The notes under the pieces are model-generated. The model had not been told where the DNA came from and ran no database searches. It saw only the letters and a list, made by a program, of their open reading frames with translations. From Synechococcus sp. NB0720_010 (GTDB lineage Bacteria; Cyanobacteriota; Cyanobacteriia; PCC-6307; Cyanobiaceae): a stretch of DNA of 64,000 nt. Shown in pieces: positions 8,954-17,435 of this stretch. The position numbers and the translations under genes are program-made. Within the stretch, counting starts at the first letter, position 1; every line of letters begins with the position of its first letter. The stretch spans positions 62,001 to 126,000 of the forward strand of contig NZ_CP090898.1 of the NCBI RefSeq assembly GCF_023078835.1, in the 5' to 3' direction.

Positions 8954-10123
8954 TCAGTTGTTAATAGCGAGGGCCGCACCGAGTCCGCCACGGATGTCAT
9001 TGGGCAAAAGACGTCCGTCGTGATCGGTGTCCAGGGCATCGAACACAGCATCGGTCCCCAGCCATTCCTCGCGAGTGATGCAGCCATCGCCATCGAGGTC
9101 GTTCAGCAGGAAGATTTCCTGGGCGGCATGTTGGAAGGCACTGGCTCCCTCCAGTTCGCCCAAACGGTGGGCCAATTGGGCTTCCAAGGTCTCGATTGCC
9201 TTGGTGAATCCCCGGATACCCTCATCCAGTTTTTCAGTGGCCATCTGATCCTCGGCCATCATCGCCTTGAAGCCTTGGGCATCCAGGTGGATCTGTTGCT
9301 CCGTCGTCGCTGGATCAAAGGGGTTCAGTTTCCGTTGCAGATCCCCTTGGGTGTTGCGCAGTTGATCCAGGAGTTTGGGCGAGATGGTGAGTAGGTCACA
9401 TCCCGCCAATTCGACGATCTCGTCGATGTTGCGGAAGCTCGCTCCCATGACCTCGGTTTTGTAGCCGAAGGTCTTGAAGTAGTTGAAGATCTTGGTGACC
9501 GAGAGCACGCCCGGATCCTCATGGCCGGGATAGCTCTCGCGGCCGGTGCTCTTTATGAACCAGTCGAGGATGCGGCCGACAAAGGGGGAGATCAAGGTGA
9601 CGCCAGCCTCAGCGGCGGCCACGGCCTGAGCGAAGCTGAAGAGGAGGGTGAGGTTGCAGTGGATGCCCTCTTTTTCGAGCACCTCCGCGGCCTTGATGCC
9701 TTCCCAGGTGGAGGCAATCTTGATCAGCACGCGATCACGGCTGATGCCCGCTTGGCGATAAAGGCCAATCAGCTTGCGGGCCTTGGTGATCGTCGCTTCG
9801 GTGTTGAAGCTCAGGCGCGCATCCACTTCGGTGGAGACCCGGCCGGGGACGATCTTGAGAATTTCCTTGCCGAAGGTGACGCAGATCTCGTCGAGGGCTT
9901 CGCGCACCACCTCTTCAGCCGGTGCCGAGGGGCCGCAGACCTCGCGGGACTCCCGCAGGGAGGTATCGATCAGGTTTTGGTAGGTCGGGATCTGGGCCGC
10001 CGCCAGGATCAACGAAGGGTTGGTGGTGGCATCCCGGGGGGTGAACTGCTGAATCGCATCGATGTCACCGGTATCGGCGACAACAACGGTCATCGCGGCC
10101 AGTTGGTCGAGGAGATTGGCCAT
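8954..10123 (-). CDS. tal: Transaldolase with C-terminal EF-hand pair
   Basis: Transaldolase B-type enzyme of the pentose phosphate pathway, which moves dihydroxyacetone units between sugar phosphates. The N-terminal 320 residues or so are canonical: [30 protein letters not shown], and the Schiff-base Lys in [15 protein letters not shown]. Past the normal end the protein continues with two 12-residue EF-hand loops, one starting DLDGDGC and the other DTDHDG. They sit about 350-361 and 373-384 on the longer 397-residue numbering, with Asp/Glu at positions 1, 3, 5 and 12. This adds a probable Ca2+-binding module to a carbon-metabolism enzyme. The ATG at 10123 is preferred; an upstream ATG at 10147 adds eight residues. 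Confidence 0.96.
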
Positions 10124-10166
10124 GCCGGGCACCAAACGTATTTTCAAGCTAGCGATGCCAATCGGG

Positions 10167-13987: not shown

Positions 13988-14035
13988 GGGCCATAGAGCC
14001 CTCAAATACGATGCCGTTTCGTTAAGGAAGTGCCC

Positions 14036-15397
14036 GTGTCCCTCCGGATCCTGCTGGTTCGCCACGGCCTGAGCAGCTTCAACCTCGAGCACCGGATCCA
14101 GGGCCGAGATGACCTCTCGAGCTTGACCGATGTGGGCGCTAAGCAGGCGCTGGCCACCGGTGAAGCCCTGCGGGCTCTGACGATTGATGCGGCTTACAGC
14201 TCTCCGCTGCGGCGCGCCCACGACACGGCCAAGGCCCTGCTGGCGGCGCAGGGATCCAGCGTGGATCTGCAGTTGAGCGATGACCTGCTCGAGGTGGACC
14301 TGGCCCCTTGGAGTGGCCTGCTGAGCAGTGAGGTCCAGACGCAGTTTCCCCAGGACTACGCCACATGGAAACGGAGCCCTGAGCAGCTCCAGCTGCGGCG
14401 CGCCGATGGATCCGAGTACGCCCCGATCCCAGAGTTGATGGCGCAGGCCCAGCGCTTTCTCGATGGTCTGCTGGCGGCCCATGAGCCAGGGGGAAGCCCC
14501 AAGACCGTTCTGGTGGTCGGTCACAACGCGATCCTGCGTTGCCTCGTGCTGGCCCTCCTTGGCTTGGAGGCTTCCGGCTTCCGTCGCCTTCGCTTAGAGA
14601 ACGCCTCCTTGTCGGTGTTCAACGTCAGTCCTGCGCCAGCCGGTTCGGCCTCCAAGCCCGTCGCGGTTCAAATCGAATCGCTGAACGGCACGACCCACCT
14701 GCAGCCCGAGGTCTGCGGAAGCAGCCTGCCCAGCAAAGGTCCAGGCCCCCGGATGCTGCTGGTGCGCCATGGCGAAACCGACTGGAACCGCCAAGGGCGC
14801 TTCCAGGGGCAAATCGATATCCCCTTGAACGAGAACGGCCGAGCCCAAGCCGCCGCCGCCGGCGAGTTCCTGCGCAAGGTGAGCTTTGATCGGGCCTATT
14901 CCAGTTCCATGTCTCGCCCCCGTCAGACGGCGGAGGGGATCTTGAAGCACCACGCGGGGGTGCCCCTCACCAGCGTCTCTGATCTGGTGGAAATCGGCCA
15001 CGGTGAATGGGAGGGCCGCCTGGAGGAGGAGATCTCTGCGGGCTGGGCGGAGCTCCTGGCCGACTGGAAACGTGCCCCCGAAACCGTGCAGATGCCTGGT
15101 GGGGAGACCATTCACGACGTCTGGGATCGCTCCTTGCGGGGCTGGAACACCATTGCTGCGAGCTTGGCCGCAGAAGAGACCGCCCTGGTGGTGGCCCACG
15201 ATGCCGTGAATAAGACGATCCTCTGCGCGTTGCTGGGCCTGACTCCGGCAGATATCTGGGCCGTCAAGCAGGGCAACGGCGGCGTCACCGTGATCGACTA
15301 CCCCAACGGAGCCGATCAAGCCCCAGTGGTGGTGTGTTTGAACCAAACGGCGCATCTTGGGGGGGTGATCGATCGAACCGCTGCCGGTGCGCTCTGA
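14036..15397 (+). CDS. Tandem-domain histidine phosphatase (phosphoglycerate mutase family)
   Basis: One chain of about 453 residues with two complete histidine phosphatase domains. The first starts LLVRHGLSSFN with its distal His in VVGHNAIL. A linker of about 50 residues leads to the second, LLVRHGETDWNRQGRF, with its distal His in VVAHDAVN. Both RHG motifs are intact, so both domains could be active. Candidate substrates include 2-phosphoglycolate-like or ribazole phosphates, but none is indicated. GTG at 14036 is preferred over GTG at 14030, because AAGGAA lies six bases before the former and directly abuts the latter. Confidence 0.9.
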   Translation: MSLRILLVRHGLSSFNLEHRIQGRDDLSSLTDVGAKQALATGEALRALTIDAAYSSPLRRAHDTAKALLAAQGSSVDLQLSDDLLEVDLAPWSGLLSSEVQTQFPQDYATWKRSPEQLQLRRADGSEYAPIPELMAQAQRFLDGLLAAHEPGGSPKTVLVVGHNAILRCLVLALLGLEASGFRRLRLENASLSVFNVSPAPAGSASKPVAVQIESLNGTTHLQPEVCGSSLPSKGPGPRMLLVRHGETDWNRQGRFQGQIDIPLNENGRAQAAAAGEFLRKVSFDRAYSSSMSRPRQTAEGILKHHAGVPLTSVSDLVEIGHGEWEGRLEEEISAGWAELLADWKRAPETVQMPGGETIHDVWDRSLRGWNTIAASLAAEETALVVAHDAVNKTILCALLGLTPADIWAVKQGNGGVTVIDYPNGADQAPVVVCLNQTAHLGGVIDRTAAGAL

Positions 15398-15421: not shown

Positions 15422-16705
15422 ATGTCCATGTCTCTCCCCCAAGCCCTGGTGCTGCGCCAGGTTCAGCTGTTGGAGGGACCAGGCCAGGCGCTTCGCCGCA
15501 CTGACGTGCGTCTGGAGCAGGGCCGGATCGTCTCCTGGGGTGAGGGTTGCCTGGATCAAGGCACCCCAGAGATCGAGGCCTCGGGGCTCCTGTTGGCCCC
15601 TGCCCTGGTCGATCCCCATTCCTGCCTGGACGATCCCCAGAACGGGGTGGCTGAAACCAGGGCCTCCCTCGAGCGTTCCGCGATTGCCGCGGGGTACGGC
15701 ACCGTCGCTGTTCTGCCGGACTCCTGCCAGTGGCGCGACTCCCCTGAACGACTACAGGCTTTGGCTCCGGTGTCCTCAGGGAGCTTCGAGCTTCTGCGCT
15801 GGGGCAGCTTCAGCCTGGCGGGGGATGGCCAGGAGCTGGCCCCCCACGGCGATCAATTGGCCAGTGGAGCCCTGGGGCTGGCGGATGGCGCCCAACTCCC
15901 CTCTCTGCCGCTGCTTGAGCGTGGCCTCAGCCTGGCGGAAATGGACAACGCTCCCGTCCTCCTCTCTCCCCGTGATCGCCGCCTGGCCCAAGAGGGGTTT
16001 GTCCGAGAGGGTGTCGCGGCCCTGCGGGCGGGATGGCCCATGGATCCCTCCACCAGTGAAAGCCTGCCCCTGCGCAGCCTGTTGGCGCTGGCCGAGCGCT
16101 ATCCCTCGCGACGCCTGCAGCTGATGAATCTCTCCACCGCCGAGGCGGTGAACCTGCTCGAGGCCGTGGCCCCAGACCAGCGCCCGCCCGCCACGGTCTG
16201 TTGGTGGCATCTGCTGGTGGACTCCGCCAGCTTGGATCCAATCGCGGAGGGGTGGCGTGTGGAGCCGCCCCTGGGATCCGCCCTGGATCGCCAGCGGCTG
16301 AAGCATGGGCTGCGCCAGGGGCTGATCAGCGCCGTGGCGGTTAACCATCAAGCGCTGGATCCTGAAGAGCAGCTGCTTCCGGTGGATCAGCGCCGCCCTG
16401 GTGTCGCCGGCCATCGCTTCGTTCTGCCGGCCCTCTGGCAGGAGCTGGTGCAGGTGGATGGCTGGAGTGCCGAGGAGCTCTGGCAGGTGCTCTGTTTTGG
16501 CCCCGCCTCACTGCTGGGTCTCGCTCCTCCCCAGCTGTCTCTCGGCACGGATCGCTGGTTGCTCTTTGATCCCCAGCAGGTCTGGTCGGCCCAGCAGGAT
16601 TCCTACGCTCCGCTGGCTGCCAACCAGCCCCTGGCGAAGGCAACCCTCAAGGGGCAGGTGCTGGCGACGGGGCTCAACCCCCAGCTTTGGCGCCGGAGTC
16701 CTTAA
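15422..16705 (+). CDS. Dihydroorotase-like protein lacking metal ligands
   Basis: An amidohydrolase-fold protein of about 427 residues that aligns by eye with PyrC: GLLLAPALVDPHSCLDDP corresponds to PGLIDxHVHLREPG, GYGTVAVLP to GGxTTVxxMP, VEPPLGSALDRQRL to NPPLRsxxDR, and ISAVAVNHQAL to the DHAPH region. The key residues differ. The H-x-H pair reads HSC, a conserved His position in the middle reads MNLST, and the catalytic Asp position reads VNH. It therefore probably does not hydrolyse dihydroorotate. Inactive homologues (PyrX type) can scaffold aspartate carbamoyltransferase. ATG at 15422 is preferred over an upstream TTG. Its 3' end overlaps lepB by 32 bases. Confidence 0.85.
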   Translation: MSMSLPQALVLRQVQLLEGPGQALRRTDVRLEQGRIVSWGEGCLDQGTPEIEASGLLLAPALVDPHSCLDDPQNGVAETRASLERSAIAAGYGTVAVLPDSCQWRDSPERLQALAPVSSGSFELLRWGSFSLAGDGQELAPHGDQLASGALGLADGAQLPSLPLLERGLSLAEMDNAPVLLSPRDRRLAQEGFVREGVAALRAGWPMDPSTSESLPLRSLLALAERYPSRRLQLMNLSTAEAVNLLEAVAPDQRPPATVCWWHLLVDSASLDPIAEGWRVEPPLGSALDRQRLKHGLRQGLISAVAVNHQALDPEEQLLPVDQRRPGVAGHRFVLPALWQELVQVDGWSAEELWQVLCFGPASLLGLAPPQLSLGTDRWLLFDPQQVWSAQQDSYAPLAANQPLAKATLKGQVLATGLNPQLWRRSP

Positions 16706-17435
16706 GCGGATCGCTGCTCGCTAACGCACCGGATGTGGGGAGGGGCCAGAAGCGCCAGAAGGCCCGTCCAATGATTTCCTGCTCAGGAAGGAAGGCGCCA
16801 CCGGGCCAGAAACGACCATCCCAGCTATTCGCCCGGTTGTCCCCCAGCACCAGGACATGGCCCGGAGGGACAACGGCATTCAGGGTCCGGCATTGCCCCA
16901 TGCCCAGGGCATCGACGGGGCAGTAGTTCTGCACGTAGGGCTCCTTGAGCCAGCTGCCGTTGATGTTGACCTGCCCTCGCGGGTTGACGACGACCCGATC
17001 ACCGGAGACGGCGACGACGCGTTTGATGTAGGCATCACAGGCAGGATCGGCGACCCCTGGAATGCTGTTCAGAATGGGCAGCTGGGCCAGGACGCAACTG
17101 AAGGGTCCGACCTTGCGATCAGCGCTCAGAACGGGATCGAAGTGGTGGGGTGCATGGAAGACCACGATCTCCCCTCGTTTGGGTGAGCGGCTGCGCAGGG
17201 AGAGTTTCTCCACCAGCAGCCGGTCCTGCAGCTGTAGTCCAGGCAGCATCGAACCCGAGGGGATGTAGCGGGCCTCCAGGACGTAATGGCGCACGCCCAG
17301 GGCCACTCCGAGGGTGATCAGCACCCCCCTCCAGAACACCCAGGGACTCTCCTGGGGGGGCTGTTGAGGGGTGCGTTCGGGGTCTGAACCTCCGCTGTTG
17401 CTGCTGGCGGCTTGTGTTGGATCGTGCGAGGACAA
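16674..17435 (-). CDS. lepB: Signal peptidase I
   Basis: Membrane-bound leader peptidase that removes signal peptides of exported proteins. The 253-residue protein has a Pro/Gln/Ser-rich cytoplasmic start, one membrane anchor (VFWRGVLITLGVALGV), the catalytic Ser in YIPSGSMLPGL, the catalytic Lys in YIKRVVAVSGDRV, and the box E motif LGDNRANSWDGR. Length and motif order match S26 peptidases. The C-terminus overlaps the end of the convergent dihydroorotase-like gene. Confidence 0.96.
   Translation of the reverse strand: MSSHDPTQAASSNSGGSDPERTPQQPPQESPWVFWRGVLITLGVALGVRHYVLEARYIPSGSMLPGLQLQDRLLVEKLSLRSRSPKRGEIVVFHAPHHFDPVLSADRKVGPFSCVLAQLPILNSIPGVADPACDAYIKRVVAVSGDRVVVNPRGQVNINGSWLKEPYVQNYCPVDALGMGQCRTLNAVVPPGHVLVLGDNRANSWDGRFWPGGAFLPEQEIIGRAFWRFWPLPTSGALASSDPLKDSGAKAGG

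Follow-up and report, generated by a model that had tools for sequence, protein, structure and literature searches.

What a protein is kept for when it has the whole fold of dihydroorotase (DHO) and not its catalytic residues is the question raised by one gene in the window, the 64,000-nucleotide stretch of Synechococcus sp. NB0720_010 DNA analysed here. The source genome is a single contig of 2.41 Mb, on which the gene lies at 77422-78702. We call it pDHO, pseudo-dihydroorotase, and suggest that its product is now probably a helper protein and not an enzyme; there is about an even chance that it descends from the DHO partner of ATCase (PyrB) and is now a non-catalytic ATCase subunit, similar to PyrX/PyrC'. 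The gene and its two neighbours are:

15422..16705, plus strand: pseudo-dihydroorotase (pDHO) gene, 427 aa, PRK07369-related (ORF and profile match, AlphaFold2, Foldseek)
14030..15397, plus strand: tandem histidine phosphatase with two His_Phos_1 domains, directly upstream of pDHO, 24-nt gap
16674..17435, minus strand: convergent ORF that we take, from its sequence, to be lepB (signal peptidase I), its 3' end overlapping pDHO by 32 nt

The pDHO ORF consists of 427 codons followed by a stop, with no internal stops. Its best-matching model is NCBIfam PRK07369 (NF005614), aligned from residue 9 to 416 (profile 4-416 of 419, E 1.1e-85) at 288 bits, below the curated cut-off of 456, which locus L060 from Cyanobacteriia outside the window's family passes with 673 bits. 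TIGR00857 (E 8e-45) and the sequence of the Aquifex DHO 3d6n (E 7.8e-26) were also matched, and the Pfam search gave no match at E<=1. The AlphaFold2 model (mean pLDDT 94.3) has the full-length fold of a catalytic type-I DHO: Foldseek detected 3d6n_A, Aquifex DHO from co-crystals with ATCase, as the best match (E 2.1e-34, TM 0.86), and VIA-align gave Z of about 47-48 to 2z00, 4bjh and 3d6n (46.9 over 414 residues). The initial annotation, made from the DNA letters, had claimed a full-length alignment to DHO in an intact frame, and both claims agree with these matches, the uninterrupted ORF and dN/dS of 0.11-0.14 (below). The nearest solved pseudo-DHO, Chaetomium 5nnl (named in PMC12524618), is not among the best 60 of 86 matches listed, from which nothing is concluded. 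The promoter and terminator scan found no promoter-like sites and 3 terminator-like sites, with 1.9 expected.

The active-site counterparts in the window protein (plus strand), each with the Aquifex DHO position to which it corresponds, are:

15617..15625, plus strand: H66-S67-C68, counterpart of the zinc ligands H61xH63; H66 is kept, C68 stands for H63
15629..15631, plus strand: D70, counterpart of the substrate-binding R65
15719..15721, plus strand: D100, counterpart of the substrate residue N95
15884..15886, plus strand: D155, counterpart of the zinc ligand D153, kept in the window protein
15965..15967, plus strand: S182, counterpart of H180
16127..16129, plus strand: N236, counterpart of H232 (MNLST motif)
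16343..16345, plus strand: N308, counterpart of the catalytic D305 (VNH motif)

The set formed by the alpha-site zinc ligands H61, H63 and D153 and by D305 is thus broken at C68 and N308, and both substrate residues, R65 and N95, are replaced (D70 and D100). Three replacements had been proposed initially, and their positions stand: HSC for HxH, MNLST at a zinc His and VNH at the catalytic Asp. To these we add R65 to D70, N95 to D100, H180 to S182 and H309 to L312. MNLST is not decisive, since the Aquifex enzyme tolerates loss of H232: in this one-zinc enzyme the double mutant H180A/H232A remains active (PMC3880350), so the losses at H232 and H180 prove little. Nor are missing zinc ligands alone proof of inactivity, because PyrC2 of P. 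aeruginosa is DHO-active and complements without them (PMC2770081 and PMC10393844). The losses at H63, D305, R65 and N95 are more telling.

The tally of these positions in relatives, which had been suggested as a check, shows that they are altered throughout Cyanobacteriia. It covered 41 loci from the window's family, 38 from other Cyanobacteriia and 8 from the phylum's other classes, with the nine loci L148-L156 outside it; the 8 loci from other classes have the Aquifex residue at each of the eight positions that follow. H61 is His in 41/41 family loci and Tyr in 38/38 other Cyanobacteriia. H63 is His in 1/41 (11 different residues occur there in the family) and 34/38, respectively; R65 is Arg in 1/41 and 0/38, and N95 is Asn in 2/41 and 2/38. 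D153 is Asp in 8/41 (Glu in 27) and 38/38, H180 is His in 0/41 and 0/38, H232 is Asn in all 41 family loci and His in 0/38, and D305 is Asp in 0/41 and 35/38. The complete DHO active site was found in 0/79 Cyanobacteriia loci versus 8/8 relatives from other classes. From these tallies, Cyanobacteriia therefore appear to share the inactive state, which is further advanced in the window's family. The active-site residues rule out an active DHO of the usual kind, and the loss of pDHO catalysis is well supported by them.

Dihydroorotate is probably made by another enzyme. A search for the organism's active pyrC, also suggested initially, detected a separate type-II PyrC elsewhere in the source genome, predicted to be active from its score (433.8 bits, cut-off 292.95) and its HLHLRD, MPN and AAKLYPAG motifs. 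Type-II PyrC is present in 36/36 sampled genomes of the window's family. Among 105 other Cyanobacteriia, at the thresholds used, type II alone was found in 19 and PRK07575 alone in 82, while two have both and two neither; from these counts, pDHO is not the sole DHO in 103/105. The two with neither (G323 and G415) have pDHO. In the two with both (G378 and G420) the PRK07575-type DHO carries an in-frame stop and the type-II PyrC does not, as if one DHO were replacing another.

The pDHO gene was found in 182/201 genomes of the window's family with the protein as query, and the PRK07369 model matched in 105/105 sampled Cyanobacteriia outside the family, 104 of them above the cut-off (105/105 is read from the no-match genomes listed, which in order of kinship pass from the family to the phylum with none from the class). 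The cut-off was exceeded in 104/291 sampled genomes of the phylum. This family-wide and class-wide presence, together with the residue tally, rules out a peculiarity of the source genome. In a tree of 44 rows, with the root placed at the midpoint for drawing only, all 29 pDHO rows are split from 15 active DHOs by a branch of 100/100 support, and the stem of the window's family is very long (1.73 changes per column).

Three pairwise comparisons among the three closest genomes gave dN/dS of 0.14, 0.129 and 0.112, and in a set of 40 family loci that excludes L077, conservation reaches 95% or more at 114/427 positions. The pDHO gene is maintained under purifying selection. A pseudogene or frame artefact in the source genome is ruled out by the absence of stops and by these dN/dS values. 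The values for the neighbouring phosphatase are 0.08 and 0.062, and pyrB gave 0.056 versus 0.14 for pDHO in the single pyrB pair compared. The claim of a retained non-catalytic protein is supported by the residue losses, the dN/dS, the pLDDT and the separate PyrC. Three pDHO matches (G050, G020 and G018) have one in-frame stop each; that of G020 may lie near the start, because the long open frame of its locus L085 has none.

The ATCase-subunit reading rests on descent and fold, and on the arrangement in another class of the phylum, where pyrB is followed after 2-29 nt by the active DHO counterpart in 5/5 loci of f31 genomes (in f37 genomes pyrB was nearby in 0/3; we presume both groups to be non-photosynthetic). 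It rests further on PyrB of the source genome, whose best solved match, by a narrow lead, is the Aquifex ATCase that partners DHO (170.3 bits, 164.3 for the next, 2at2), and on PyrI, found in 0/40 genomes searched. The P. aeruginosa and S. meliloti precedents also support it: PMC7053772 describes a pseudo-DHO as ATCase partner in P. aeruginosa, and disruption of smc01361 in S. meliloti leads to pyrimidine auxotrophy (PMC5929573). Against it stand the lack of pyrB adjacency, the losses with pyrB kept, the lack of excess change in PyrB of the loss lineages, the faster evolution of pDHO than of PyrB in the single pair compared, and the long family stem. In the Cyanobacteriia loci examined, pDHO was not found beside pyrB, and pyrB of the source genome is at 1275492-1276463, far away on the same contig.

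The losses bear on this directly. No pDHO match was detected in 14/15 g13 and 4/15 g38 genomes, the small-genome genera of the window's family. The phosphatase adjoins lepB without an intact pDHO in 11/11 loss loci inspected (7 g13, 4 g38); two of these g38 loci (L160 and L161) retain pDHO remnants, and in G178 (L163), another g38 genome, pDHO is split over frames, where an assembly error is possible. One apparent loss, G118, was discounted because its assembly, 82% complete, lacks the neighbouring phosphatase too. The sole g13 genome with a match, G119, has a very divergent copy (L077, 245 bits, branch 1.84). The pyrB gene is kept in 44/44 genomes searched. A first count detected changes at 9/109 conserved PyrB sites in the g13 loss lineage, shared by all its members or limited to some. 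In the lineage-by-lineage control, which took sites that do not vary among the other pDHO-bearing genomes and counted a change if it occurred in all lineage members, no PyrB signature of pDHO loss was found: 3/84 sites changed in the g13 and 0/84 in the g38 loss lineage, the three g13 changes are all conservative, and pDHO-bearing lineages have 0 to 9 changes at invariant sites, a range that covers the loss lineages. That these lineages keep pyrB, with nothing unusual in how PyrB has changed, is evidence against ATCase strictly depending on pDHO in the window's family.

The most constant neighbour of pDHO in Cyanobacteriia is the histidine phosphatase. The order phosphatase, pDHO and lepB, with the phosphatase upstream on the same strand and lepB downstream and opposite, occurs in 41/41 family loci, and the phosphatase is upstream in 33 of 47 loci from 45 other Cyanobacteriia genomes, where flanks are often short. 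This neighbourhood would fit a repurposed amidohydrolase fold that acts with or regulates the phosphatase, or binds a metabolite in the old pocket, with no tie to ATCase; H66, S67, N236, W261, W262 and H263, which lie in that pocket or close to it, hardly vary across the window's family though not catalytic. We consider this unlikely, since the phosphatase does not need pDHO: it is kept in 16/17 other genomes searched, 12 of them without pDHO or with a broken one, and the adjacency was not found in 14 of those 47 loci with their often short flanks. It is similarly doubtful that a pseudo-enzyme fixed before the Cyanobacteriia radiation became, instead of an ATCase scaffold, a metabolite sensor or regulator working with the neighbouring phosphatase, and was discarded in the smallest-genome lineages of the family. 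The phosphatase itself scores 216.3 with the NCBIfam model for cobC, above the cut-off of 162.9, and 234.6 with that for PspA, below the cut-off of 350. Elsewhere in the window, an ORF at 8954-10147 (minus strand) is transaldolase-like and ends, at its C-terminus, in two EF-hand-like motifs; both names are tentative.

The same losses, at least two in small-genome lineages, together with the frameshifted copy and deletion scars, the long family stem and the divergent G119 copy, would be expected if pDHO were a dispensable relic being lost, under weak constraint and without any important role in the window's family. We regard this as improbable in view of the dN/dS of 0.11-0.14, the conserved positions, and retention in 182/201 family genomes and, among the genomes listed, in all 105 other Cyanobacteriia.

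Two further readings are very improbable. A zinc-free backup DHO, still catalytic, has its precedent in the active and complementing PyrC2 of P. aeruginosa (PMC2770081 and PMC10393844), but in the window's family R65, N95 and the base D305 are either missing or left to vary, and the gene is class-wide, in one conserved order in the family. A scaffold or inhibitor subunit for an active DHO, not for ATCase, could be suggested by the PRK07575-type (type-I) active DHO found just beyond lepB in 12/47 other Cyanobacteriia loci; we give it similarly little credence, as pDHO is kept regardless in the window's family, where the type-II PyrC of all 36 sampled genomes belongs to another family.

We return to the ATCase-subunit reading; the PyrX role proposed initially is plausible but unproven, and is our best guess. 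The ancestor would have been a type-I DHO like those that assemble with ATCase (PyrB) into a dodecamer. Catalysis would have been lost in the ancestor of Cyanobacteriia, the dihydroorotate step being done by another DHO, of PRK07575 type or, in the window's family as in some others, type-II PyrC. The pDHO would then have been kept as a folded, non-catalytic protein, which most likely continues to bind PyrB trimers and to stabilise or tune ATCase, the part played by PyrX/PyrC' in Pseudomonas and probably in rhizobia; we infer this partnership, and in the window's family its role may be accessory rather than essential. We recognised no paper on a cyanobacterial pseudo-DHO in the open-access literature, as judged by titles and abstract starts.

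The family shows a pseudo-enzyme that a whole bacterial class has retained and small-genome lineages have since lost, and its losses are a natural experiment on the need of ATCase for a pseudo-DHO partner. PRK07369 (NF005614) is named "dihydroorotase", and its Cyanobacteriia members are without the complete DHO active site, so the label looks wrong there; on these residues the database name is probably wrong for the Cyanobacteriia family, and this probable misnaming touches metabolic models and essential-gene lists.

Among known systems, the DHO of Aquifex aeolicus (3d6n, 4bjh; an active partner of ATCase) is the best Foldseek match and has the full-length fold at about 23% identity to pDHO. 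It has H61, H63, R65, N95, D153, H180, H232 and D305, whereas the window pDHO has only H61 and D153. Unlike PyrX/PyrC', pDHO is class-wide in Cyanobacteriia, is absent from certain lineages in which pyrB persists, and is a putative partner of PyrB; PyrX/PyrC' typically, though not as a strict definition, lies beside pyrB and the cyanobacterial pDHO does not. Nevertheless, PyrX/PyrC' of Pseudomonas and smc01361 of S. meliloti, the pseudo-DHO of class A2 ATCase, are like pDHO without the zinc and substrate residues, and their genomes encode a separate active PyrC, as does that of the window pDHO with its type-II PyrC.
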